Positions 3 through 11,348 of a stretch of DNA of 11,348 nucleotides are shown here, piece by piece. The notes under the pieces are model-generated. The model saw only the letters and a list, made by a program, of their open reading frames with translations. It had not been told where the DNA came from and did no database searches. This DNA is from an uncultured Erysipelotrichaceae bacterium (GTDB taxonomy: Bacteria; Bacillota_I; Bacilli_A; Erysipelotrichales; Erysipelotrichaceae). Position 1 is the stretch's first letter. Every line of letters begins with the position of its first letter. The stretch lies in contig CACXEN010000173.1 of the NCBI GenBank assembly GCA_902766675.1, positions 1 through 11,348 on the forward strand, written 5' to 3'. The position numbers and the translations under genes are program-made.

Positions 3-182
3 ATGAATCAACAAGTGCTTGACAATATTGATGTTGTTTCAGCAAAATTCAACGAAACATACATTACTGCCATTCAGGAAGCCGCTAGGAATCTGCCAAA
101 TCCGAGAGAAGCAACAATGTTTATTCAGAAATTTATATCTGAGTTTAAGGCGTTTGAAAAGCAGATTAAATCATCATTTTAA
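3..182 (+). CDS. C-terminal end of an upstream protein, or a small 59-aa helical protein
   Basis: An open frame runs from the window edge to a TAA at 180-182. The first ATG is at base 3, so I cannot see whether it is a true start with an SD or an internal Met of a longer protein; I treat the gene as probably 5'-truncated. The visible 59 residues look helical, with heptad-like hydrophobic spacing and many Gln, Glu and Lys, and end in QIKSSF. I recognise no family. It lies upstream of the 642-aa gene in the same direction, with a 55-base gap holding an SD and a perfect hairpin and no clear promoter, so it is probably the preceding cistron of the same operon. Confidence 0.6.
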   Translation: MNQQVLDNIDVVSAKFNETYITAIQEAARNLPNPREATMFIQKFISEFKAFEKQIKSSF

Positions 183-199: not shown

Positions 200-230
200 A
201 TGGTAGGCTTTATTTGATAAAGCCTACCAT
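200..230 (+). repeat. Perfect 13-bp inverted repeat (hairpin) in the leader of the 642-aa gene
   Basis: Bases 200-212 and 218-230 are perfect reverse complements (stem ATGGTAGGCTTTA, loop TTTGA). A T-A pair inside the loop could extend it to 14 bp with a 3-base loop. It begins directly after AGGAGG and ends 7 bases before ATG 238. The downstream tract is ATTATTT, not a good U-run, so a strong intrinsic terminator is doubtful, though partial attenuation between cistrons is possible. A structure that brings the SD to the start codon, or otherwise gates translation, fits the geometry better. Confidence 0.8.
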
Positions 231-237
231 ATTATTT

Positions 238-2166
238 ATGAAGGAAAACAGGATAAATGATACCATAAAAAACGCAATCGAGTTAATAAATAAAGAGACA
301 ATTGCAAATGCAGCTCCAAATGCGCCGTTGAATCCTTGTTTATTAGTTTATTTGGATTCGCGTTCATGTGGTTTTGTGTCTACAGTGAATCAGAGTTTAG
401 TTACTTACTGGGGAAAATATGCTAGTTATATTCCTAATCTTTTCTATGATCATTCCTCTGAAGTGTTTATGGTTTTAGATGATTATGGAAACATTACAGA
501 TAGCGTTGATATTATAGATGTTCTAGAGAATCTCCGTGGTTTAGATGAGAATATCTTTACTGCTAAGTCGAAAATGAGGATTTACTTTATTGTTGATACA
601 ACCGAAATATCTAACATGGATATTTTTGTAAAGATGTATGATGTAATAAAGGTATTCAAAGATATTAATCTAAGGTTTTCAACAATGTTGTTTTTCATGG
701 AGGATTCCTCAATTAGACGAGATCATGTAAATCTGAGAACTGAAATGAAAAAGCATTTGTGCCGATTGGATGAAAATTCAAAGTACGATTCTATAGTAGT
801 TTTAAGTAGTCAGCTATATGGAGATGGAGGAAGCTTAGTCGGCGATAATGAAAAAAGTAATTATTCATTGTTATCAAGTATTATAATGCTTTCCAATAAT
901 GATGATATAAATGTGGGGAATCGGCAATCACTTTTTTATTATGCATCTGATGAAAACAGAATAGCATTAACAGCTGCATATAAAATAGTAAAGAAACCCA
1001 TCAGTGAAATAGTTAGTGTATCATTTTATTCTATTATTTCCTGTGTTGTTGATAAACTATTTAGCATTGATGATGACTACGAAATACCTAAAGAAGAATT
1101 ATTGGAAACACTTGAACTTAATAGAGCTACAGGTTATGAATTCATTAACAGAAGTATAGGCAAATTGCTTCAGGAAAACCTTCCTTCAATTAAAGATTTA
1201 AAAGTGTTGCCTAATATGCCACAAGGTGGTTTATCAATTAGAGGTGCAGGAAATGCATATATAACCCCCAAAGAGGTTTTTGATTATTTAAACAAAACGA
1301 CAAAAGGGTGTTGGAATGCTTTCTATAAGACATATTATTTAAATACGATTGGTGATTTGTTAAAGAATGAAATTGATAATGGACATATTAAAGAAAGAAT
1401 GTCTATTAACTTGAAGCAAAAATTTACATATGCTCAATTAAGTAGATTGTTAGAGTCAAAATCACTATCATTGATTGAGTCATCTACACCGGAATACCCA
1501 ACGATTCGCGCAATAAATAATTATAATGAATTAAATAACTTTATTATCGATTGCCTAAAGGCTGAAGTGTTTAAGGAAGTTAAGCCAGTCATAATTGATG
1601 TAATAAGACAAATAGACGAAGAAGCAGAGCGATATATTGCAATGCTAAATGAAATAAAGGCTGAGTTTGAAAGTATTTCAAAAATAAAAGCGAAAGATAT
1701 GAAAGCTAATATCCCTCAGTTTTACGGTCAAATTATTCAAGACTACCTTATGAACGCAGATAATAAACAGTTTGTAATAAAAAAGTTTGATGATTATGAG
1801 AATTCAGAATCTATGTTATTATCAAATCTGTTTGAATTATTTAAACAGATTGTTGAATGTTATGAGGTGTACAGGTGTTCGTTTGAAAATGAACTGAATC
1901 AAAGATTAAATACTCTTTCACCAGGTGCTATTGATCAGTTGATTACATCTTCTTTGCTAGACAATCCAGATGATGCGATAAGACTGTCATCACCACTCAA
2001 ACCGAGGTTTTTAAAACAATTCTTTTTAATCAATGAAAAGGCAAATTATGCATCCATGATGCGTGTGGATGAGCAGGGAGAGATTATTAATACTGGTTCA
2101 AGTAGTTTTGCTGAGAACATTATTCTATATCTTTGTAAATCAAGCCATTTAGTAATCGATAAGTAA
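238..2166 (+). CDS. 642-aa protein of unknown family; alpha/beta N-half, helical C-half
   Basis: I place the start at ATG 238 (MKENRINDTI), using the AGGAGG at 194-199 across the hairpin; an extended TTG start at 214 would lie in the hairpin loop. I do not recognise the family with confidence. Residues 30-220 alternate hydrophobic strands and helices: CLLVYLD (34-40), EVFMVLD (75-81), RIYFIVD (114-120), FSTMLFFMED (147-156) and SIVVLS (185-190), followed by LYGDGG and SIIMLS. This suggests a Rossmann-like or tubulin-like core. I see no P-loop and no GGTGSG tubulin motif, so nucleotide binding is not supported. The C-terminal half is mostly helical, with a charged stretch near 460-510. As the first complete gene of the cluster it may be a large scaffold or sensor. 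A degenerate tubulin-like protein, of the kind sometimes found near GAP1/GTPase genes, is a low-confidence alternative. Confidence 0.85.
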   Translation: MKENRINDTIKNAIELINKETIANAAPNAPLNPCLLVYLDSRSCGFVSTVNQSLVTYWGKYASYIPNLFYDHSSEVFMVLDDYGNITDSVDIIDVLENLRGLDENIFTAKSKMRIYFIVDTTEISNMDIFVKMYDVIKVFKDINLRFSTMLFFMEDSSIRRDHVNLRTEMKKHLCRLDENSKYDSIVVLSSQLYGDGGSLVGDNEKSNYSLLSSIIMLSNNDDINVGNRQSLFYYASDENRIALTAAYKIVKKPISEIVSVSFYSIISCVVDKLFSIDDDYEIPKEELLETLELNRATGYEFINRSIGKLLQENLPSIKDLKVLPNMPQGGLSIRGAGNAYITPKEVFDYLNKTTKGCWNAFYKTYYLNTIGDLLKNEIDNGHIKERMSINLKQKFTYAQLSRLLESKSLSLIESSTPEYPTIRAINNYNELNNFIIDCLKAEVFKEVKPVIIDVIRQIDEEAERYIAMLNEIKAEFESISKIKAKDMKANIPQFYGQIIQDYLMNADNKQFVIKKFDDYENSESMLLSNLFELFKQIVECYEVYRCSFENELNQRLNTLSPGAIDQLITSSLLDNPDDAIRLSSPLKPRFLKQFFLINEKANYASMMRVDEQGEIINTGSSSFAENIILYLCKSSHLVIDK

Positions 2167-2179
2167 GGGTGATAATCTA

Positions 2180-2926
2180 ATGGAAATTAATGTATTACCA
2201 AGAGATGTTAACCATTTTATTCTGGAAGTTAAAGAAAGGACAGATGATAATGGTAAGGCATATTTGACTTGGGATTATTTAAATGCAACACATTTTTTAA
2301 TACTTAAACGTTCAGTATCCGCTGATGATGCTGATTTATTTGATGAAACGTTTAGGAAAAACTTGTCGTTGCAGTTGAATGAGTTGTTTGACATAAGAGG
2401 GGAAGTAATAGGTTCTGATGTTGATTTAGCAGACGGAACAAAAGCATCTCTCTTATCCTTTAATGAGTATCGTAGAAAAAACAGGTGGCATTTCAACCCG
2501 ATGCCCATGAGAATAATTATCATTTGTTGTGAGAAAAAGGGAAACGAGTTCAACATCTTTATGCCGGATGATGTTGCCATTTGTGCTACGTTTATTCCAG
2601 AACGGATACATATTAAAGTATGGAAAGATGGAACCAATGTAATTCAAAGACGTGGTGGTTTAAGAAGATTATTTGGACAAAGGGAAGCACAGAGTTCAAG
2701 TATTACTTTCCATATAGAAATATCAAAAGTTAGCGAACAATACAAAGGTGGAATCTATTATAAGCTCTCAGGAAAGAATTACAGATTTCCCGTTCCAATA
2801 ACAAGGGAAATGACTGGAACTGCGTTTTCTGTTGTTGTGCCTAATGATATGAATATCGAATTTATAGCGGATACTAAGATTAAAAAGAACTATATTATTA
2901 GCCAAGAAGAAAAGCATTCTTCATAA
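2180..2926 (+). CDS. 248-aa beta-rich hypothetical protein
   Basis: The start is ATG 2180. Its SD, AAGGGTGA (2165-2172), overlaps the stop of the previous gene, implying coupled translation. I do not recognise the family. Residues 1-45 and 105-150 read as short alternating strands (FILEVKER, RIIIICCEKK, FNIFMPDD, RIHIKVWKDG), as in a beta-sandwich or similar domain. A basic, glycine-containing stretch follows at about 157-168 (RRGGLRRLFGQR), then more strand-like sequence (SITFHIEISK, YRFPVPI, FSVVVPND, IEFIAD). There is no signal peptide, membrane segment or obvious catalytic motif, so it is probably a soluble cytoplasmic protein. Its place between the 642-aa protein and the pseudokinase-GTPase suggests an adaptor or accessory subunit, which is inference. 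Confidence 0.85.
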   Translation: MEINVLPRDVNHFILEVKERTDDNGKAYLTWDYLNATHFLILKRSVSADDADLFDETFRKNLSLQLNELFDIRGEVIGSDVDLADGTKASLLSFNEYRRKNRWHFNPMPMRIIIICCEKKGNEFNIFMPDDVAICATFIPERIHIKVWKDGTNVIQRRGGLRRLFGQREAQSSSITFHIEISKVSEQYKGGIYYKLSGKNYRFPVPITREMTGTAFSVVVPNDMNIEFIADTKIKKNYIISQEEKHSS

Positions 2927-2962
2927 TATTCATTTATTATTCTGAATGAGGTGGAATTATGA

Positions 2963-5356
2963 ATGGAAAACCTTAAAGGAAAAAGAATAGATGGGCGATA
3001 CGATGTAAAACACTTGAAACGATTAGATGTTCTCTCAACAATTTATGTTTGTTATGATAATGATAGAGATAAAGAAGTAGAAATAAAAATTTTTAATGAT
3101 GATAAGATAACAACTAATAGTGCTTATCCTAGATTAAAAAACTTGCTGCATCAAATACATGGAATCAATGGAAACTGCATTTCAGTAGCTAATGATTATT
3201 CGTTTGGTGACAATTTTTCATACATTGTATGGGATGCCATAAAAGGGGAGTATCTTAGTACTTTTATGAGAAATCAACCGGCATTGGATTGGTATAGATC
3301 TGTTTCATTAATTGAACAGTTACTCAACGCATTGAAACTCATTCATGATAAAGGAGGTTCTCTTGGGAATATTAATCCGAATATGATTATTATTTCTAAT
3401 GGAAATACATTAACATTAACAGATTACTGTGATGTTAATTATCACGAGCTAAATGAATCTGCTTTTAGGTTGTTGGATAAAAACCTAGCATTTTATTATG
3501 CTCCAGAAGTTATCAATAATAATTTTGATTACCACGCAGACATTTACTCTGTTGGAGTTATTCTTTTTGAGTTGATTACTGGAAAACGCTTAACAATAGT
3601 TGACGATAGTTTTCAGACAATTTTAAGTACAAAATGCCGTAGGTGTCGTAAGCCAAGAGAAATTGTTTCAAGTATTCCGTTAGGGCTAGAACAAATTGTT
3701 ATAAAAGCATTATCTGTTGAACCCCAAAATAGGTTTAATTCCGCTGATGATTTTCTAAAACACTTAAAAGAAATAAAAGAAAACCCACAAAAAGTGTTTG
3801 ATTTAAAAACTAATAATACTAGACGAAGTTATTTTATTGATTTTCTAAAACCAATCAACAGGAGTGAAAATAAGATGGATTATAGGTTTAGGTGTCCTTA
3901 TTGTTTTGAAGAGATGGGACATGAAGAAGTCCTTTTCAGAGGGGTAACCACATTTCGACCAGAGGAATTTGATAAGACTGGGCAGGGACGACAAAAGTCG
4001 GATATCGAATTGATTGCAGACAATAAAACGAGAAATGAGTTACTGAAAGAATATGAAAGAAGGGAATTCTTTTCTCATAGATATGATGAAGTTTATCATA
4101 ATTGGTATCGAGATCATAATTTCGGAACTACATCGGAAAATCCAGGAGATGATGAATTTGCGATTTATGATAGACCAATTATAAAGCCTAATGATCATGG
4201 TACTAGTGGACTCATTTATGATGAAGATGGATTTGCGATAAAAATAAAAGACCCATGGGGTGAACCGACTATGGAAAGGGTTTGTAAGTTTTGTCACAAT
4301 CCTATTCCAATGGGATACGGTAAGTATCCTATAAAGTATATTAGTGTTATTGGTATTTCTGGTGCAGGAAAGACGGTTTATTTATCCAAATTAATACAGT
4401 ATATCAGGCAGTATACAGCGAATCTGGATCTTGATGCGACGCCTTCTCCTAGTGCGGAGGTTTTTGTAGAGAAAAACCTAATCCAAGAAAACAATGAACT
4501 ACCCGCATCAACTGTAGTAAAACATCTTGAACAACCTCTTTCTTATAATCTGAAATATGATGACAATAAAAATGAAACTTTTGTTATCTATGATATAGCA
4601 GGAGAAAACTGTACAAATGCAACAGAGTTATTAAAGTACGGAAAATTTGTCACTAACTCAAGCGGAATTATTTTGCTTATTGATCCAAAGAAAGAACTCG
4701 GTTTTGGTGAAACTGTTCCCGTCCATTCTCTTGATAAGGTTTTAGTTAACATTAATACCTTATTTGGCAAGGGTGGGTTAAATGATATTCCATTAGCTGT
4801 GTGTATCTCTAAAAGTGATTTAATGCATAATACATTAAGTGAGGTATTTTATGATCGTGTAACGACAGTAGGAGATCGATTTAATGCTGAAGAGTATAGC
4901 AGCATAAGTAGGGAGTTAAGTGAGTGGTTTCAAAGTAATGCTAGAGTTACAAAAAACACACTAAAGAGAAACTATAGTACATATAATTTCTTTGCATTTA
5001 CTACATTAGGATGTGCGACAAAAACAAAATTGATTATTGATTCGGATGGAAATGAGTATGAGAGAGATGTTCCCATTCAACCACCTAATCCCAAAAGAAT
5101 AGAAGAGCCATTATACTGGTTATTTAAGCAATTTGGATATATTAAAGCAACAGGGAGTATTTATACCCCAAAGAACGAGGATGCTTTGGCTAAAAGAGTT
5201 GAGCTTGTTGAGAAGATTAAAGAATTGCAGGCAAAGCTAAGTTCATTTGGCTTTTTTGGTCACAGAAGAGAAAGAAGAGAAATAGAAGAAGAAATCGCAA
5301 AATACCAAGCTGATATTAATCAATTGGACATTGAAATCAAAAAGTATGCACAGTAA
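2963..5356 (+). CDS. Pseudokinase / split zinc ribbon / TRAFAC-type GTPase fusion protein
   Basis: The ATG at 2963 is 8 bases after GAGGTGG (2948-2954). An earlier ATG at 2959 is out of frame and closes after five codons. Residues 8-275 have a Ser/Thr kinase fold: opening RIDGRYDV, a VAIK-like EIKIF with Lys42, an APE-like YYAPE (178-182), and DIYSVGVILFELITGK (193-208). The glycine loop is lost, HRD has become LGN (134-136), the catalytic-loop Asn is Met141 and DFG is DYC (154-156), so phosphotransfer is unlikely. Cys pairs at 311/314 and 441/444, separated by about 126 residues, form a split zinc ribbon. The GTPase has Walker A GISGAGKT (464-471), switch II VIYDIAGE (541-548, Asp544 and Gly547) and a G4-like SKSD (616-619). 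A charged coiled coil occupies about 740-797. A zinc ribbon followed by this P-loop resembles the double-GTPase (DO-GTPase2) type. It is probably the nucleotide switch of the operon, reading input through a dead kinase domain. Confidence 0.9.
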   Translation: MENLKGKRIDGRYDVKHLKRLDVLSTIYVCYDNDRDKEVEIKIFNDDKITTNSAYPRLKNLLHQIHGINGNCISVANDYSFGDNFSYIVWDAIKGEYLSTFMRNQPALDWYRSVSLIEQLLNALKLIHDKGGSLGNINPNMIIISNGNTLTLTDYCDVNYHELNESAFRLLDKNLAFYYAPEVINNNFDYHADIYSVGVILFELITGKRLTIVDDSFQTILSTKCRRCRKPREIVSSIPLGLEQIVIKALSVEPQNRFNSADDFLKHLKEIKENPQKVFDLKTNNTRRSYFIDFLKPINRSENKMDYRFRCPYCFEEMGHEEVLFRGVTTFRPEEFDKTGQGRQKSDIELIADNKTRNELLKEYERREFFSHRYDEVYHNWYRDHNFGTTSENPGDDEFAIYDRPIIKPNDHGTSGLIYDEDGFAIKIKDPWGEPTMERVCKFCHNPIPMGYGKYPIKYISVIGISGAGKTVYLSKLIQYIRQYTANLDLDATPSPSAEVFVEKNLIQENNELPASTVVKHLEQPLSYNLKYDDNKNETFVIYDIAGENCTNATELLKYGKFVTNSSGIILLIDPKKELGFGETVPVHSLDKVLVNINTLFGKGGLNDIPLAVCISKSDLMHNTLSEVFYDRVTTVGDRFNAEEYSSISRELSEWFQSNARVTKNTLKRNYSTYNFFAFTTLGCATKTKLIIDSDGNEYERDVPIQPPNPKRIEEPLYWLFKQFGYIKATGSIYTPKNEDALAKRVELVEKIKELQAKLSSFGFFGHRRERREIEEEIAKYQADINQLDIEIKKYAQ

Positions 5357-5362
5357 AGGTGA
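5355..5362 (+). promoter_or_regulatory. Shine-Dalgarno AAAGGTGA that sets the start of the GAP1-like gene
   Basis: AAAGGTGA overlaps the stop codon of the GTPase gene (5354-5356). It includes the alternative start GTG 5359 but lies 5 bases before ATG 5368, so ATG 5368 is the likelier start and the GTG is part of the SD. Confidence 0.7.
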
Positions 5363-5367
5363 AAGAT

Positions 5368-7707
5368 ATGGTAGAAAAATACTATAAGCTTACTTTAGCA
5401 AGATTAGGAAAACAAGAAAGCTGGGCAGGTTGGAAAATAGCTGGAAAGTCTCAAGATACACCGAAGCAAGTTATGGATAGCTTTGAGAGTTATCATAGTA
5501 GTAAAAACCAAGTAGCAGGTTCATTACGAAAAATGATGGACATGTACGAAGTATCTGAATATCGAGGCAACGTGTTTGTTTCAAAAATTAAATTCGGAAT
5601 AAAAGATATGCTTGGCAGACCAACTTTTTCTGTGAAAGGATTTGCTTTTCAGATATCAGAGAATACTGATATTTACACTCATCCAGAAGTTTTTATGAAC
5701 TTTATTTTTGAGGATTTTGATTTTTCATTAAAAAATCTTTATGATGAGAATAGGAACTTAAAAAGTGAGTATCTTTCGGGTAATGGTATTATTACCATAC
5801 ATGATGATGCTTGCCTTAAAACCAGGAAATTGGACTATAATGAGATAAAAGCAAAATGGTTTTCTGATGAATCTAAATACGAAACATTTGTAAGATCGAT
5901 TTACTGGGCAAGTAACAATAATCAAGTAGTATTACATATAAAAGTTCCAAATGACTTCAATGAATATTTTGAACTCATGTTTTTGATTTATAGTATTTTG
6001 CCTTTCGGAATTAGGAGAAGTTTTAGTTTTCGAAGCTCATATTTAAGAGGATTGTCAGGTGCCAAGATTGTATTTACCGATGATGCAGTTAGTGGAAAGT
6101 ATTTTGATTTAACATCTGGCTCAAATAATATATTTATAGATTCTAATATTTTGAATAATTCAAAAAAGTATTCTTTTGTGCAATACATTATCGATAATAA
6201 TGATGGAGCATTAAACGATTACTTTGAATTATTGCAAGATTCATTAGAAAGAATGGGACAATCAAAGACGACGGATCTTAATACTATTGAAATGGCGCAT
6301 AACATGTTATCGGAAGAGAATGATGATGAGGAAGAGTTAATTGACGAAGACGTATTGAAAAAATTTCAAGAGTATATATCACTGGATTATTCAAACGATT
6401 TAGTTGATGAAAATATCGTTAAGTATCTACGAATAATTATCGAGAAAAACATATACTTAAACGATACATTATTCTCAAAATTAGAGAATAGATTGTCGAT
6501 GACTAAGTATCAGCCCTTAATTGATATGGGATATTCATACAAAGCATCGCAAATTTTAGCTGAATACTCAAGAGATCCAGAAAAAGTATTTGAAAGTCTG
6601 TTTGAGTATGAGGAACATACAAATGACTTTCAGCAATTCATAACTAGATTGTTAAGTTTTTCTGAGGGTGCAGCTTTTCTTGATGATTATTATGCATCAT
6701 TCTATTTCAATGAGAAAGTCACTGATATGGAAAGCTTATCCGAGTTTTACCAAAAGACAAAAGAATTACCAGAAAGAGCTTGTATTTCCAAAGCAATTAG
6801 AAGCAAGGCGATGGAGTACTCAAATTCATTAGTGGAAAAGATGATTGATGAACACATCGATTTTGATTTGGATGAATATAAGGATTGCCTTTATTCAGGT
6901 TTTGGTTTGTCGAAAGAAAGTGTACAGCAAATAGTTGAACAAATGAAGCGGAGCTATTGGACAAGTTTTTTATTTAAGAAATTTACATTTAGTCGTATTG
7001 AAGACTATTTGAATTATTTACCATACTACAATTGGCAATTTAACTTGATAGAACATATTAATAAAGATGTACTTGAAAGACTTTCTTATCAAGACGCAAA
7101 AACCATTAGGACTTTTAGTAATCTAATATCTGGTCGAACATTGAAGGAAATTCGATTAACTACAGAAGAAGCAAAGCATATTACAAATTGTTTTCAAAAG
7201 TACTGTTTGGATTGTTCCCCAGATAAGAGTACGCATTTAGATTTTTGGTTTGAAGTTGCACACCTGGATAAGTTTAATTATATTGAGTTTATTTTTACTA
7301 ATCGAATTACAGTGTTTACCAATCCCGAATGTTTTTCGGAGGAGTTGGTAATTAGTGAATTGTATTTGAATAGAAATAAAGATATAACTTGTAATGTTAA
7401 ATACTCAATTTTTTGTACCAATCTATTATCATATATTGATTCTCATGGAGAATATGATGAGATTGGAAGAGTATTGGAACGAATCAAAGATCGTGAAAGG
7501 AAATCAAAAGAAATATATAGTTCTTCAAAAGAGAAACATCACACTGCCAAAGAAAAAGAAGTTGGTTCAAAGGGAAGAGAACATGATTCAAAAGACAAAG
7601 AACGCATTTCTAAAGGCAAGGAACGAGTTCCAAAAGAAAGAGAAGAGCCTGAAAAGAAGAATTTTTTGTCTAGATTTGGTGGTATTATAAAAAACAAGAA
7701 TAAATAA
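5368..7707 (+). CDS. GTPase-associated protein 1 (GAP1)-like protein with heptad-repeat tail
   Basis: Using ATG 5368 the product is 779 aa. The first 250 residues look like a GAP1 N-terminal region: YYKLTLARLGKQESWAGW (5-22), GWKIAGKSQDTPK (21-33), a strand followed by DMLGRPTFSVKGFAFQI (80-96), and LPFGIRRSFSFRSSYL (211-226). These match my memory of the GAP1 pattern of a GW(K/Q) opening, a D-x-x-GR-x-x-F segment and an LP...SF segment. GAP1 proteins are known mainly by linkage to TRAFAC GTPases, and the GTPase gene here is 11 bases upstream. Residues 270-705 are helical, with an acidic patch (EENDDEEELIDEDV) near 313-326. Residues 713-761 are seven tandem heptapeptides rich in Ser, Lys and Glu, followed by a basic end. 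It is probably a soluble regulator or partner of the GTPase. Membership is by pattern recall only; whether it stimulates GTP hydrolysis is unknown. Confidence 0.8.
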   Translation: MVEKYYKLTLARLGKQESWAGWKIAGKSQDTPKQVMDSFESYHSSKNQVAGSLRKMMDMYEVSEYRGNVFVSKIKFGIKDMLGRPTFSVKGFAFQISENTDIYTHPEVFMNFIFEDFDFSLKNLYDENRNLKSEYLSGNGIITIHDDACLKTRKLDYNEIKAKWFSDESKYETFVRSIYWASNNNQVVLHIKVPNDFNEYFELMFLIYSILPFGIRRSFSFRSSYLRGLSGAKIVFTDDAVSGKYFDLTSGSNNIFIDSNILNNSKKYSFVQYIIDNNDGALNDYFELLQDSLERMGQSKTTDLNTIEMAHNMLSEENDDEEELIDEDVLKKFQEYISLDYSNDLVDENIVKYLRIIIEKNIYLNDTLFSKLENRLSMTKYQPLIDMGYSYKASQILAEYSRDPEKVFESLFEYEEHTNDFQQFITRLLSFSEGAAFLDDYYASFYFNEKVTDMESLSEFYQKTKELPERACISKAIRSKAMEYSNSLVEKMIDEHIDFDLDEYKDCLYSGFGLSKESVQQIVEQMKRSYWTSFLFKKFTFSRIEDYLNYLPYYNWQFNLIEHINKDVLERLSYQDAKTIRTFSNLISGRTLKEIRLTTEEAKHITNCFQKYCLDCSPDKSTHLDFWFEVAHLDKFNYIEFIFTNRITVFTNPECFSEELVISELYLNRNKDITCNVKYSIFCTNLLSYIDSHGEYDEIGRVLERIKDRERKSKEIYSSSKEKHHTAKEKEVGSKGREHDSKDKERISKGKERVPKEREEPEKKNFLSRFGGIIKNKNK
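7504..7650 (+). repeat. Seven degenerate 21-bp tandem repeats encoding (S/A/P)K-x-x-x-x-x heptapeptides
   Basis: Seven in-frame 21-base units encode SKEIYSS, SKEKHHT, AKEKEVG, SKGREHD, SKDKERI, SKGKERV and PKEREEP. Each starts with Ser, Ala or Pro and then Lys, and most continue with Glu, Lys or Arg. The array sits just before the basic C-terminus of the GAP1-like protein. The units have diverged at the DNA level, so this is an old expansion by slippage or unequal exchange. The peptide is probably a disordered or single-helix charged tail. Confidence 0.85.
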
Positions 7708-7722
7708 TGTGGTGAATAACAA

Positions 7723-8709
7723 ATGAGTTATTATTTAAATAATAGTGAAATTCTTTTCAGTAGAATCTGCAGTGATAACATATATCGTGTTGCGGGAAAT
7801 TCACCATCGTTTGAAACAATGATGGGGGAAAACCTATTGATGGAGGTAGAACACATCAAAAGTAAAGAGAAATTTTTATGTTATCCATGTGGACATCAAC
7901 AAAGGAAAAGGACTGCTTTTGTTTTAAATGCTATTGCTACACCTATGTTAAAGGCATTTGTTTGGCCCAGCGATTTAGTGTCTTTAGGAAATAATGATTA
8001 TTGGTTATTTAAAAAGAAAATTGGACATAAAGATAACAAATTTGAAAACTTGATGCAGATAACAAGGGGAAAATCTTTTGATGGATTTGAAACACCAAGA
8101 ATTAAAGATATTGTTTTTAATTATTTGAATGCTTTAGATAATCTTTTTAAAAATGGTTATATATATAGGTACTGGGATGAAAGAATGATTTTTGTCGGAG
8201 TTGAAAAAAACGAAATCGTTTTTCAATTTCATACCTATCTATCGAAAAAAAACAACCAAATGCATTTGAAAGAGGAAGAATACTATTCAGAACTGACGGA
8301 TCCCTTTGCTTTCTATCATGGTAACAATTATGACTTCTATTCGGATATGTATTCTTACCAAACGGTTTTATTCAAGCTTTTAGTTGGCATGTATCCATTT
8401 GAGGGTAAAAACCTACTATATAAAAAGAATGATGATTCAATAAGTGGACATCAAGGATGGGTAATGCACTATATGAGAAATGTATATTTTGTTTTTGATG
8501 AAGATGATAGAAGAAATCGAATAGGGGTAATGGGTGAAGACATTCCTCGTGTGAAGCGTTGGGAGGCACTTCCTCAAAATATTCAAAATATGTTTAGAAA
8601 TGTATTTAAACGTTCGAATGTTTTAAGAGAGAACGAAACAATCATTTGCTATTCTCCTCAAGAGTGGATCAGAGAACTGCAGAAGTTTGATTTCAAGCTA
8701 AAAAAATAA
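7723..8709 (+). CDS. Second, highly degenerate pseudokinase (328 aa)
   Basis: The start is ATG 7723 with SD GGTGA (7711-7715), 7 bases upstream. Kinase ancestry shows in the C-lobe: SDMYSYQTVLFKLLVGMYPF (207-226) followed by EGK matches the alpha-F region ('SD.Y.....L..LL.G..PF.G'). Before it, GYIYRYWDERMIFV (145-158) occupies the catalytic loop and FQFH (167-170) the DFG position. Upstream, TPMLKAFVWPSDLVS (73-87) and DYWLFKKKIG (92-101) recall the 'aWP.dll ... GflM' stretch of kinase-like proteins of the YegI type, found in bacterial conflict operons with zinc ribbons or vWA proteins. HRD has become YRY, the loop Asn is Met, DFG is QFH and no glycine loop is visible, so it should be inactive. 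It lies between the GAP1-like gene and the Sel1-membrane gene and may bind ligand or partner rather than phosphorylate. Confidence 0.8.
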   Translation: MSYYLNNSEILFSRICSDNIYRVAGNSPSFETMMGENLLMEVEHIKSKEKFLCYPCGHQQRKRTAFVLNAIATPMLKAFVWPSDLVSLGNNDYWLFKKKIGHKDNKFENLMQITRGKSFDGFETPRIKDIVFNYLNALDNLFKNGYIYRYWDERMIFVGVEKNEIVFQFHTYLSKKNNQMHLKEEEYYSELTDPFAFYHGNNYDFYSDMYSYQTVLFKLLVGMYPFEGKNLLYKKNDDSISGHQGWVMHYMRNVYFVFDEDDRRNRIGVMGEDIPRVKRWEALPQNIQNMFRNVFKRSNVLRENETIICYSPQEWIRELQKFDFKLKK

Positions 8710-8710
8710 T

Positions 8711-8715
8711 GGAGG
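8711..8715 (+). promoter_or_regulatory. Shine-Dalgarno GGAGG in a TAATGGAGG junction
   Basis: The pseudokinase stop (TAA 8707-8709) overlaps ATG 8709 by one base. That ATG overlaps GGAGG (8711-8715), which is 5 bases before ATG 8721 and favours 8721 as the start of the Sel1-membrane gene. The same TAATGGAGG arrangement recurs at 9747-9755. Confidence 0.7.
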
Positions 8716-8720
8716 ATAAT

Positions 8721-9749
8721 ATGAGTTATAAATTGCAATCTCAGTTGAAAGAGTTTGTCCAAAAAGAAGGCAAGCAAGAACTGTTGAATGAGGTAAAACT
8801 ACTAACTTGTTTTGGCGATTCCATAAAATCGACTGAGTTACATCAACTTATATTAGTGTTATCATGTGACACAATAAAAGATTTTATTGTAAACTCTGAT
8901 AAGTATTCTAATCGTGTAGAGCTTAACAACCTTATAATGTCAGTTGTTAATGCTACCGGATTAAAGAATTCAGTGGCAAGAGATTATGTTGCTATGTTAT
9001 GTATAGTTATCGGCGTGAGTTTTAATCATGAAATTATTACTGCATATGATCCGGTTAACGAGTCATTTGTTCAAACAAGTAACACTTTAGAGCCAACAAT
9101 AGAGCGAAAGAAGTTGGATGCTGCACGACTGCAAAAGGATTCTGGAAATACTGATAAAGCTGCAGAAATCTATGAAGAGCTTGTAAAAGCAGGTTCAGCA
9201 ACGGCTATGTATGAGTTAGGTATGATTTATCTTGAAGAATTCAAAGCAGTATCTGAAAAAAACACTGTTTTGCCTAATCAATCTTTACAACTAAAAAAAG
9301 GCATAAAACTCTTAGAGATAGCAGCCGAAAACGGACATGTTAAGGCAAGAGTCGAATTAGGAAATTTCTATTATTTTTATGATATGCGACCAGATTCATT
9401 AAAAAGTGCTTTTGCGTATTACTCGTCTCCTGGAATACCTTCAACAGATCAGAATGTAAAGGACAGGTTAATTGGAATACTCAATCAAGAAAAAACTAAT
9501 TTGTTAGTAACAATATTAGGAGGAATTTGGACTGCAATCATTTGGGCTTTTCTTTTCGTTTGTGGACACTCCGTACATCATGATTCTGTATTAATTGGTT
9601 GGGGATTGGTGTTTACAATTATCCCAACCTTGATATATGGTGTGATGTGCTATTCGTTGGTCAAATATAAATACGCATATAATAAAATCTGCATGTTTGC
9701 TATGATGATAATATGGTTTGTTTATCCATTGATATTGGCAATAAATTAA
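8721..9749 (+). CDS. Helical-domain, Sel1/TPR-repeat protein with three C-terminal membrane helices
   Basis: Using ATG 8721 (SD GGAGG, 5 bases upstream) the product is 342 aa. Residues 1-100 are helical (QLKEFVQKEGKQELLNEVKL, then a FGD and a long helix set). They resemble a helical domain I recall from bacterial proteins with Sel1 repeats, but that link is weak. Residues 129-236 hold two Sel1/TPR-like units: DKAAEIYEELVKAG/SATAMYELGMIYLEE and KKGIKLLEIAAENG/HVKARVELGNFYY. Membrane helices are at about 260-281, 289-313 and 323-341, with the protein ending in LILAIN. No signal peptide is visible, so the N-terminal domains probably face the cytoplasm. The repeats would provide protein contacts, making this a candidate bridge between the GTPase/pseudokinase proteins and the membrane. 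It sits 11 bases after the pseudokinase and 14 before the polytopic gene, fitting a shared membrane module. Confidence 0.85.
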   Translation: MSYKLQSQLKEFVQKEGKQELLNEVKLLTCFGDSIKSTELHQLILVLSCDTIKDFIVNSDKYSNRVELNNLIMSVVNATGLKNSVARDYVAMLCIVIGVSFNHEIITAYDPVNESFVQTSNTLEPTIERKKLDAARLQKDSGNTDKAAEIYEELVKAGSATAMYELGMIYLEEFKAVSEKNTVLPNQSLQLKKGIKLLEIAAENGHVKARVELGNFYYFYDMRPDSLKSAFAYYSSPGIPSTDQNVKDRLIGILNQEKTNLLVTILGGIWTAIIWAFLFVCGHSVHHDSVLIGWGLVFTIIPTLIYGVMCYSLVKYKYAYNKICMFAMMIIWFVYPLILAIN

Positions 9750-9750
9750 T

Positions 9751-9758
9751 GGAGGTGG
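9751..9758 (+). promoter_or_regulatory. Shine-Dalgarno GGAGGTGG that sets a GTG start
   Basis: GGAGGTGG lies 5 bases before GTG 9764 and overlaps the end of the previous gene's TAATGG junction. It argues for GTG 9764 over the earlier in-frame ATG 9713, which would begin 36 bases inside the upstream gene and before its own SD. Confidence 0.65.
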
Positions 9759-9763
9759 CTTCA

Positions 9764-11131
9764 GTGACAGATAAAATGATAAAATTTGTATCAACGAATC
9801 TATGTGTAGTGATACTAATGCTAGTAGTCTTAATTTCCCATTACTCGTTAGTTGGATTAATATCATTTTTTGTTGGTTCAATATTGTTGTTCCTTGGAAC
9901 GTTACTTGATGATAAAAAAGCAAATTTTGGTGTTACGAGTAAGTTGTCATATATTGTGTTTATCGCGACATTAACACTATTTGGCATGTGGTTGCCTTTT
10001 GTCCTAAAAAATAAGATTCATTTTGAACCGATGGGGAAAGCTAATGTTTGGGGTATTATTATTTCGTTAGGATTAGCTTTTATATTCTTCATTATGTCGG
10101 GATCATCAAAGTTTAATCATTATCTTGTACGACGTTGTTTAAAGTACTCAGGACAGATACTGTTTCTTTTAGGCTTTTATTATTTTTGGGATTTACCACT
10201 TGTTACATTTCGTTATACTGTTATAACGGTAATTGTTTTTTTGCTTACGGATTTGTTTTCAACAAAGTATATAAAGTATAATACGAATGAATTCAAAGAC
10301 TCAAATAACGATAAAGCTTTTTGGATGGCTTTTTTGATTAATCTGTGCTTCGTTGCTCTTAATCTTTTTTACAGACAATATTTTATGAAGTTTGCAACAA
10401 AAGAAGCAATAACACAAAGACTTGAAGGGATTACATCAGGCTTTTATGTGCCGTTGTTTATAATTCTAATGGTGGTATTAACCGTTATATATGTTGTTTT
10501 GTATGAACGGGCAAAAGATTTTAATTATAGCATGATTGCAGATGCGTTTTTTACACTTTCGTTAGGAGGATTTGTTCTGCTGTTCAGGATATATGAATCC
10601 AATAGATCTATAGAATCATTTATCCTTCTTTCTGTATCTACACTATTATATTTAGTATTTCTATATTCAATTCCTTCTACGAATTCAGGCAGTAAGAAAA
10701 ACCCAGTATATTATTTGATTAGATTAGATGGAGATGCGCATATTTTTATTTCCTTAATCATTACAGTGTTATCAATACCAGGTATTATATTTGCGAAGAA
10801 AGGGTATATAATTCCTGTTGCTTTTTTGATTGCGTCTGCAATTATCGTTTCATTAGTGTTTATAAAGTGTCAAGGTTCTTGGGTGAAAAAGAGTATTCGT
10901 TGGCAAATTACCCTAATATGTATTCTTGCTTTTGTAATTAGCATTTCTGTTGTAAATTCAACATTAAATCACTCCTTATTATTACTGATTCTCTTGTGTT
11001 GTGTAAGTTCACTCGGAATTTGGACGATTGGTATTCGAGAAGATATTGTGAAGTATAATTATCAAGAAATAGTTCAGTGTATTACTTGTGTAGCATCTTG
11101 TGGTATAGGATTAATTGCTGTAGGAATATAA
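9764..11131 (+). CDS. Polytopic membrane protein, about 15 hydrophobic segments, family unknown
   Basis: I start it at GTG 9764 (M-T-D-K-M-I-K), 455 aa, because GGAGGTGG is 5 bases upstream; ATG 9776 is a possible alternative. Nearly the whole protein is hydrophobic segments of 17-21 residues, for example 8-26, 29-48, 61-81 and 94-110, continuing to the C-terminal CVASCGIGLIAVGI. Loops are short; the longest are charged (for example KYIKYNTNEFKDSNNDKAFW). I see no transporter signature, ATP-binding motif, rhomboid or protease motif, or acyltransferase motif, so a function cannot be named. As neighbour of the Sel1-membrane protein and a lipoprotein, it may be a membrane effector or anchor of the system. 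A generic integral membrane enzyme or flippase-like protein cannot be excluded. Confidence 0.85.
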   Translation: MTDKMIKFVSTNLCVVILMLVVLISHYSLVGLISFFVGSILLFLGTLLDDKKANFGVTSKLSYIVFIATLTLFGMWLPFVLKNKIHFEPMGKANVWGIIISLGLAFIFFIMSGSSKFNHYLVRRCLKYSGQILFLLGFYYFWDLPLVTFRYTVITVIVFLLTDLFSTKYIKYNTNEFKDSNNDKAFWMAFLINLCFVALNLFYRQYFMKFATKEAITQRLEGITSGFYVPLFIILMVVLTVIYVVLYERAKDFNYSMIADAFFTLSLGGFVLLFRIYESNRSIESFILLSVSTLLYLVFLYSIPSTNSGSKKNPVYYLIRLDGDAHIFISLIITVLSIPGIIFAKKGYIIPVAFLIASAIIVSLVFIKCQGSWVKKSIRWQITLICILAFVISISVVNSTLNHSLLLLILLCCVSSLGIWTIGIREDIVKYNYQEIVQCITCVASCGIGLIAVGI

Positions 11132-11144
11132 GGAGAATACATAA

Positions 11145-11348
11145 ATGAGAAACTTATCAAAAATAGTATTTGTTACTGTATTATTAATGCTAAGTGTTTT
11201 TTTTACTGCTTGTAGTAATTCTGAAAGTGGAAAAGATGAAATGCCAGCCGAAATAGGGAAATGGCACGCTGATTATAAATTGAGTGATATGGATAGTAGC
11301 GGTATGGCGGACGAAGATAAGGCTTTGTTCTCCATGTTAGCTGGAAAT
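11145..11348 (+). CDS. N-terminal part of a secreted lipoprotein (truncated by window end)
   Basis: The start is ATG 11145 with SD AAGGAGA (11130-11136), 8 bases upstream and overlapping the previous stop. The first 68 residues are visible. A short basic N-region (MRNLSK) leads into a hydrophobic core (IVFVTVLLMLSVFF) and a lipobox FTAC with Cys23, followed by SNSESGKDE, a polar tether. This is a typical type II (lipoprotein) signal peptide; Phe at -3 is less usual than Leu. The mature part continues GKWHADYKLSDMD, possibly the start of a small extracellular beta-barrel-type domain, but too little is seen to assign one. It would be anchored on the outer face of the cytoplasmic membrane. The frame is open to the window end. 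Confidence 0.85.
   Translation, partial: MRNLSKIVFVTVLLMLSVFFTACSNSESGKDEMPAEIGKWHADYKLSDMDSSGMADEDKALFSMLAGN

Follow-up and report, generated by a model that had tools for sequence, protein, structure and literature searches.

The window analysed here is a stretch of 11,348 nucleotides from an uncultured Erysipelotrichaceae bacterium and is the complete contig CACXEN010000173.1 (C173) of a genome of 1.5 Mb in 251 contigs (G000). The genes recognised in it all run in the same direction, and the six between positions 2963 and 11348 overlap or are separated by 15 bases at most. A preliminary description of this DNA had seen these six as one tight operon, encoding a pseudokinase-GTPase, a GAP1-like protein, a second pseudokinase, a Sel1-membrane protein, a polytopic membrane protein and a lipoprotein. 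The operon is real and all six assignments hold, but only its 3' part had been taken up: two uncharacterised proteins, named p642 and p248 here, a tubulin gene and a gene for a vWA protein with a transmembrane (TM) segment had been missed. Once the tubulin and vWA genes upstream are seen, the combination is not of an unrecognised kind, as had been thought. Judged by its sequence families, the operon belongs to the 'tubulin theme' of DO-GTPase/GAP1-N2 systems (Kaur et al. 2020, PMC7159879) and to the vWA/FtsZl1 operons (Makarova and Koonin 2010, PMC2875224); these papers and PMC11090510 are cited throughout from excerpts of their text.

On the plus strand, the contig opens inside a gene for an FtsZ-like tubulin (Tubulin_2), of which the last 59 codons remain (3..182). 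It is followed by p642 (238..2166, starting at ATG 238, with TTG 214 as a possible alternative start), p248 (2180..2926), a 797-residue fusion of a pseudokinase, a zinc ribbon and a DO-GTPase (2963..5356), GAP1 (GTPase-associated protein 1, N2 type; 5359..7707), and a stand-alone pseudokinase named psk2 (7723..8709). The membrane module consists of a TPR/Sel1-type repeat protein with C-terminal TM helices (8709..9749; repeats below the Pfam cut-offs, TPR_16 at 1.2e-4, and 3-4 hydrophobic segments), a polytopic protein with about 13 TM segments in a hydropathy scan (9713..11131), and a lipoprotein (11145..11348) that is cut by the contig end. No Rfam family matched in the window. PADLOC matches of the kinases (PD-T4-6 and others) were rejected as reflecting the kinase fold and not a system.

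The genes lost at the contig edges could be read from two loci found by searching genome contigs with a GAP1 alignment: L034, from an 'uncultured Bacillales' metagenome-assembled genome (MAG), and L035, from an 'uncultured Clostridia' MAG. A stretch of the L034 contig (L048) is 99.7% identical in DNA to the whole window (27 mismatches and a single gap in 11,348 bases), and its lipoprotein has 185 residues. Both loci encode a tubulin-like protein 5' of p642, 1137 or 1153 residues long, that matches PF13809 (4.3e-50 and 6.7e-56, Pfam); positions 3-179 of the window correspond to residues 1079-1137 of the L034 tubulin with 98% identity. The tubulin gene is itself preceded by a gene for a VWA-domain protein (VWA at 1.8e-12 in L035), in which a hydropathy scan shows a signal-like stretch at the N-terminus and a TM segment around residue 530.

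A search with the GTPase family (alignment A10, 28 sequences) provided the distribution of the system. Among 394 genomes of the order of L035, six have a GTPase match at E <= 1e-10 and four have a close one (>500 bits), including G517, the genome on which the sample was centred. Among 395 genomes of the window's class there are five matches, and the only close one is the window's own. We compared five loci: window/L048, L035, L081 (G579, guanine-plus-cytosine content (GC) 55%), L082 (G825, 52%) and L083 (G749, 62%). The genes for tubulin, p642, p248, DO-GTPase, GAP1, psk2 and the TPR/Sel1-TM protein stand in one order in all five, over a GC range of 32-62%. L083 was held out of the family profiles and is matched by all seven of them, at E-values from 3.2e-9 (p248) to 7e-214 (tubulin). 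Pairwise BLASTP independently supports the other loci, most weakly for p642 (8e-5 to L082) and p248 (1.8e-6 and 5.7e-5). The vWA-TM gene lies upstream in four of the five, with a second tubulin gene in between in L081/L107; the L083 contig begins inside the tubulin gene, and this locus alone has a vWA gene of a second type, downstream. A polytopic protein with 11-13 predicted TM segments comes next in 5/5 loci and a lipoprotein closes the 3' end in 3/5. The first eight genes look like a machine; the last one or two vary.

The genes thus occur together in five loci, and the four genomes with a close GTPase are also the four with the best psk2 matches among the 394, which argues against the possibility, raised in the preliminary description, that these genes are mostly found apart. 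Chance neighbourhood, or an ordinary housekeeping operon, would be in keeping with the flanks of L035 and L081, which look by eye like housekeeping genes. Against a seven-gene order kept in every locus between GC 32 and 62%, and an operon absent from nearly all sampled relatives, we find this explanation hardly credible.

The GGGTGSG motif is kept in four of the five tubulins adjoining p642, and the metal ion-dependent adhesion site (MIDAS) of the vWA protein reads DASGS in L082 and L107. A second tubulin is encoded in L081/L107 and, interrupted, in L048. The one in L081 lies just upstream of the first and keeps GGGTGSG; these tandem tubulins (L081 13633-17061, and L107) are perhaps an active/modified pair. 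In L048 (17942-20000) the second tubulin gene is broken by an insertion sequence-like transposase (two open reading frames (ORFs), by eye) and lies 3' of a lipoprotein gene, a DUF1810 gene and a gene whose short TM product looks by eye like the beginning of an ion channel. Elsewhere in the L034 MAG, L049 (2579-6991, minus strand) encodes a protein of 1470 residues that joins protein kinase, NB-ARC and TPR parts; close by lies a gene covering the C-terminal half of a tubulin that belongs to the operon's family, and the GC equals that of the operon contig. L053 and L054 are operons of vWA, tubulin and large protein genes, where the GTPase profile matched no DO-GTPase within the fetched stretch.

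The fusion protein of the window combines a kinase domain (PF00069, 5e-17), a zinc ribbon with CxxC pairs at residues 311 and 441, and a DO-GTPase domain (4337..4900) that exceeds the cut-off of 27 bits for both PF19993 (28.6) and PF19975 (27.1) and contains the motifs GISGAGKT, DIAGE (a Walker B with its Glu) and SKSD. The motifs GxxxxGKT and D-I/V-AGE are kept in 5/5 loci. With DO-GTPase and, mostly, tubulin motifs intact, these catalytic parts look alive. The fused kinase domain K1 (3035..3763) is probably dead: it retains the VAIK Lys, and its HRD and DFG motifs read LGN and DYC. A kinase domain is annotated in three of the 120 listed GTPase relatives (245 matched), namely the window protein, P0009 and P0011, and all three lack the HRD aspartate (LGN, LGN, HGS). 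In L035, a stretch of 535 bases (7949-8483) before the intact DO-GTPase gene is a decayed remnant of K1 with stops (tblastn 2.7e-27, 88.6 bits; best of 200 shuffles 24.6). As K1 is found in few relatives and has decayed in L035, it marks a single clade, which can do without it. The two dead kinases of the preliminary description are hence present in the window without being a stable trait of the system, since the fused one is absent in three of the five loci and decayed in a fourth.

The stand-alone kinase is the constant one. With Pfam, psk2 reaches only 17 bits (cut-off 31.7), and a family profile of four psk2 sequences matches kinases of the PDB at 3.6e-9. It is present in 5/5 loci with broken catalytic motifs in each: no lysine at the aligned VAIK position (5/5, in a loose part of the alignment), no HRD aspartate in four of five (L083 keeps it), and, in place of DFG, the triplets QFH, QFN, DFS, DFT and NYS, read by eye (the alignment used for the other motifs is shifted by one column at this point). 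When the psk2 profile was searched against the 394 genomes, the top four (4e-153 to 1e-31) were the four operon genomes with a close GTPase; three of them contributed to the profile, and G749 is the sole independent match. Another 33 genomes match at E 1e-5 or better, and the matches that come next belong to a different kinase family. In five of the next six genomes, the ones that we inspected, the kinase gene is 433-454 codons long; four of these genes adjoin a vWA gene and a PP2C-like gene and the fifth a PP2C-like gene alone (Pfam was checked for two of the five neighbourhoods). By sequence and setting these are TerY-P-like triad kinases. They keep the VAIK lysine, HRD aspartate and DFG aspartate in 5/5 and the following Asn in 4/5.

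In a tree of 19 kinases (IQ-TREE, read unrooted; supports as SH-like approximate likelihood ratio test/ultrafast bootstrap), psk2 and the triad kinases stand apart from the other nine sequences (99.6/99), psk2 stands apart from all the rest (98.4/99), and K1 groups with PknB (92.4/93). The pseudokinases psk2 and K1 differ in age and origin, and on this tree psk2 appears related by ancestry to the TerY-P-like kinases without being a member of a TerY-P triad. Such a triad (PMC11090510) comprises a kinase with a C-terminal zinc ribbon or OB fold, a TerY vWA protein and a PP2C; psk2 shares ancestry with the triad kinase, but has broken motifs, a shorter C-terminus and a length of 323-391 against 433-454 residues. 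This kinship makes one think of a Ter-like stress response signalling by phosphorylation, in which the kinases of the operon would still be active by an unusual route or would sense nucleotides. The intact catalytic residues of the TerY-P-like kinases, the VAIK lysine of the fused kinase and the HRD aspartate of the L083 psk2 point that way. The losses listed above, of the VAIK lysine and most HRD aspartates in psk2 and of the HRD aspartate in 3/3 fused kinases, point the other way, as does the lack of any PP2C gene recognised in the ORF lists of the operon (the PP2C profile was not run on all proteins), and we hold such signalling to be improbable.

The assignment of 5359-7707 to GAP1 comes through its relatives. 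By itself, the window protein has no Pfam family at E <= 1 and scores 12.0 bits with GAP1-M, below the cut-off. Three of seven close relatives match GAP1-M weakly (best E 0.038), and when three whole genomes were scanned at E <= 10, each had a single GAP1-M match, which fell in the GAP1 gene of the operon (E 0.24, 0.07 and 0.007); at this loose threshold 5 of 14 control genomes also matched. The proteins of L082 (GAP1-M, 26.6) and L083 (GAP1-N2, 33.5) are both above the cut-off of 24, and BLASTP connects the window protein to them at 1.5e-22 and 2.6e-13, respectively; the L035 protein is 51% identical to it. In addition, a five-sequence GAP1 profile aligns over residues 3-232 (218 columns) with the proteins in GAP1 position at four other DO-GTPase loci, L084-L087 (hhalign 95%, E 3.9e-8), among which the L084 protein, the only one scanned with Pfam, is a weak GAP1-N2 match (E 0.089). 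The link through L082 and L083 is firm at the level of sequence families. The last 60 residues are highly polar, at 73% in the window and 53-73% over the five loci. A search with the single sequence, with scoring limited to the 7998 candidates that had most words in common with it, returned seven proteins including itself, and in a family sample of 145 genomes none of the 144 others has the gene. An early view of this GAP1 as a very rare orphan was corrected by the GTPase search and the gene order.

The relatives of p642 and p248 hold the same position in all five loci, and p642 of the held-out L083 is matched at 4e-34. No Pfam family matches p642 above chance, a search for relatives started from four p642 sequences listed no protein but that of the window, and an AlphaFold model from a two-sequence alignment is unusable, with a predicted local distance difference test (pLDDT) of 39.8. 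Its profile gave no match to tubulins, as a second tubulin of the firmicutes theme would, nor to the 593-residue protein of L051 or the 646- and 657-residue proteins of L053 and L054. For p248, six of eight PDB matches are antibody light chains (E 0.19-1.9, none significant); it is perhaps a beta-sandwich and may be a diverged form of FNIII. The polytopic protein is 69% identical between the window and L035, weakly similar to those of L081 and L082 (hhalign E 0.001) and without similarity to that of L083. The vWA, Sel1 and polytopic proteins all have hydrophobic segments by hydropathy scan.

Between the tubulin gene and p642 the window has a hairpin (200..230, plus strand) with a perfect 14-bp stem and a 3-nt loop, identified by folding energy (dG -19.8 kcal/mol, z -4.9) and with a repeat finder. 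A hairpin is found at this junction in 5/5 loci and, by folding strength, takes one of the top two ranks within the operon in 4/5; in L082 it is outside the top six. The 50-base windows that fold equally well or better number 4/3378, 5/3121, 27/3302, 3/3163 and 2/3172 in the five loci. Stem sequences differ among distant loci, and the differences between the window and L035 keep the pairing. It lies in the longest intergenic gap of the window, and such gaps often carry hairpins. No T run follows, and it is therefore not a classical terminator. In the window and in L035 (about 5270-5304), a ribosome-site-like sequence directly precedes the hairpin and the ATG of p642 follows after 7-8 bases, as if the hairpin bridged the spacing between the two.

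The near identity with L034 calls for transfer or for a contaminated bin. C100, another contig of the window's genome, has pieces that are 65-74% alike to G516, the MAG of L034, and the operon is 99.7% identical between the two, which leads to these two explanations. GC is 0.32 in the window, 0.33 in C100 and 0.29-0.32 in three further contigs of G000 (five of the eight fetched read as N and were left out), and 0.23-0.28 in the sampled contigs of G516, whose operon contigs are at 0.33. The operon therefore fits the genome of the window and looks foreign or mis-binned in G516. At L035, L081 and L082 the flanks look like ordinary chromosomal genes (names by eye). PADLOC, run on nine chosen flanking proteins and not on every flanking ORF, gave three generic matches (GlgB-like, LacI-like and a weak RmrA), and none for the other six.

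Several traits tie the operon to systems described before. As in the tubulin theme, a DO-GTPase (by family, Walker-B Glu and zinc ribbon) directly precedes a GAP1 with a polar tail, a GAP1 assignment established through the relatives as the window GAP1 alone scores below cut-offs, and a PF13809 tubulin and a TM vWA protein with an outer domain (VWA in L035) are present; the tubulin of the theme has a C-terminal coiled coil (PMC7159879), a feature that was not computed here. Unlike the theme as described, the operon adds a core pseudokinase and the module of TPR/Sel1-TM and polytopic proteins, and has one GTPase gene per locus, with a GTPase-fused pseudokinase in one clade. The firmicutes theme of PMC7159879 has two tubulins, two vWA genes, one of them YtkA-fused, and a protein with rapidly evolving FNIII repeats. 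We found no FNIII match at E <= 1 in the window genes, the vWA proteins or ten proteins of the L051 system, and no YtkA match in the scanned proteins, although no search was aimed at YtkA. In the same paper, the kinase theme of GAP1-N2 has an active kinase with a PP2C and is restricted to actinobacteria; the inactive kinases that it describes belong to another class, VMAP. In the order of L035, L084 (3085-11659, minus strand) is a DO-GTPase system with a motif-intact kinase and a PP2C, a theme thus reported only from actinobacteria in PMC7159879. The same-order system of L051/L052 shares with the operon DO-GTPases, a protein in GAP1 position (GAP1-M E 0.002, below cut-off), a vWA-TM protein and a tubulin; it differs in having two GTPases, a second vWA gene, no detected psk2 or p642 and another gene order. 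Thin profile comparisons between the window genes and L051/L052 gave nothing significant.

With the operons of PMC2875224 our loci have in common vWA, FtsZ-like 1 (Tubulin_2), a diverged GTPase, kinase folds and many TM proteins; vWA, GTPase and an FtsZl1 with GGGTG(S/T)G (4/5 tubulins next to p642) share one operon. They differ by their broken kinases and by the lack of an OmpA family match in the scanned proteins, and GAP1, p642 and p248 are not named in the excerpt of PMC2875224. GAP1, DO-GTPase and tubulin go unmentioned in PMC8195603. New in our data are the stand-alone core pseudokinase (5/5), the clade-limited GTPase-fused pseudokinase and the tubulin/p642 hairpin. The literature searched, which did not cover the supplements of the 2020 paper, does not describe any bacterial tubulin system that has a pseudokinase akin to the TerY-P-like kinases; those supplements may show this exact layout.

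What would such a machine do? From the computed gene content, order, family links and motifs, we infer the interactions, the direction of signalling and a role in defence. A signal at the envelope would pass inward through the outer vWA-TM protein (and a lipoprotein in some loci), or p642 and p248 would read an intracellular cue. This input would switch the DO-GTPase together with its partner GAP1, and the switch would gate whether the FtsZ-like tubulin assembles at the membrane. The module of psk2, TPR/Sel1-TM protein and polytopic protein would serve as platform for docking and output, with kinase folds acting as scaffolds and no phosphorylation. The output would most likely be containment, or damage to the cell's own membrane, upon invasion.

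We would give an even chance that the operon is such a DO-GTPase/GAP1 tubulin-theme system of a pseudokinase subtype, i.e. a tubulin assembly gated by GTP, tethered to the membrane and scaffolded by dead kinases, likely for defence. We lean on this reading because the seven-gene order is kept in 5/5 loci with vWA-TM upstream in 4/5 and the GTPase and GAP1 are members of the class; because the GTPase P-loop and Walker B (5/5), GGGTGSG (4/5) and the hydrophobic segments are there; because the distribution is patchy and rare, with 99.7% identity to a MAG that is 65-74% alike in pieces of one other contig, in keeping with transfer or mis-binning; and because p642 and p248 are the least conserved proteins of the closest pair of loci (34% and 36% identity, against 49-78% for the other seven), which would suit contact with invaders. 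Two reports add to these reasons: the kin of psk2 are TerY-P-like kinases, whose kinase-vWA-PP2C modules are reported as antiphage (PMC11090510, citing Gao et al. 2020), and according to the argument of PMC7159879 the GAP1 class has a role in conflict, in agreement with the preliminary description, which had linked GTPase and GAP1 pairs to predicted conflict or signalling systems. A role of the operon in immunity is plausible.

Other observations weigh against this reading. Among the loci whose flanks are readable, none was recognised as lying in a defence island, a setting that the preliminary description had proposed to check, and the operon has no relatives in viral contigs or phages, with one distant plasmid match. 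The Pfam scan of the window yields no nuclease, protease or known toxin domain, as had been remarked there for nucleases and toxins. The L081 tubulin adjoining p642 reads GGGTGAG, and the MIDAS of L048 and L050 reads DSTNS and not DxSxS. In the closest pair the outer vWA protein is the most conserved (78%), unlike a sensor driven by phages, and between L081 and L082 the identities of p642 (31%) and p248 (27%) are not outstanding next to the 26-32% of psk2, Sel1, polytopic protein and GAP1. Finally, the literature searched holds no experiment on any member of this class.

Some of these points, together with the housekeeping-like flanks and the many TM subunits, would be expected of a machine for membrane remodelling or envelope maintenance without immunity, where an anchored, GTPase-switched tubulin shapes the membrane or builds vesicles and the patchy distribution reflects a niche. 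Remodelling was the role proposed for vWA/FtsZl1/GTPase/protein-kinase operons (PMC2875224), and a conserved outer vWA would fit it. The rarity of the operon and its possible transfer fit it less well, as do the faster change of p642 and p248 in the closest pair and the variable effectors carried by GAP1 systems elsewhere (PMC7159879). We regard it as a possibility of some substance, if on the doubtful side.

Operons of tubulin, vWA and GTPase genes have thus been the subject of two predictions, membrane remodelling (2010) and, with GAP1, conflict systems (2020). The subtype described here offers a small conserved gene set in which a kinase fold persists without catalysis, and the scaffold hypothesis thereby becomes open to direct testing. 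We tentatively suggest, at somewhat less than even confidence, that in this distinct subtype dead-kinase scaffolds replaced signalling by phosphorylation and were recruited twice independently, once as the constant, TerY-P-like psk2 and once as the PknB-like, GTPase-fused K1 that is being lost. If true, prokaryotes would have in this system an equivalent of the cytoskeletal or cell-death platforms that are gated by pseudokinases.

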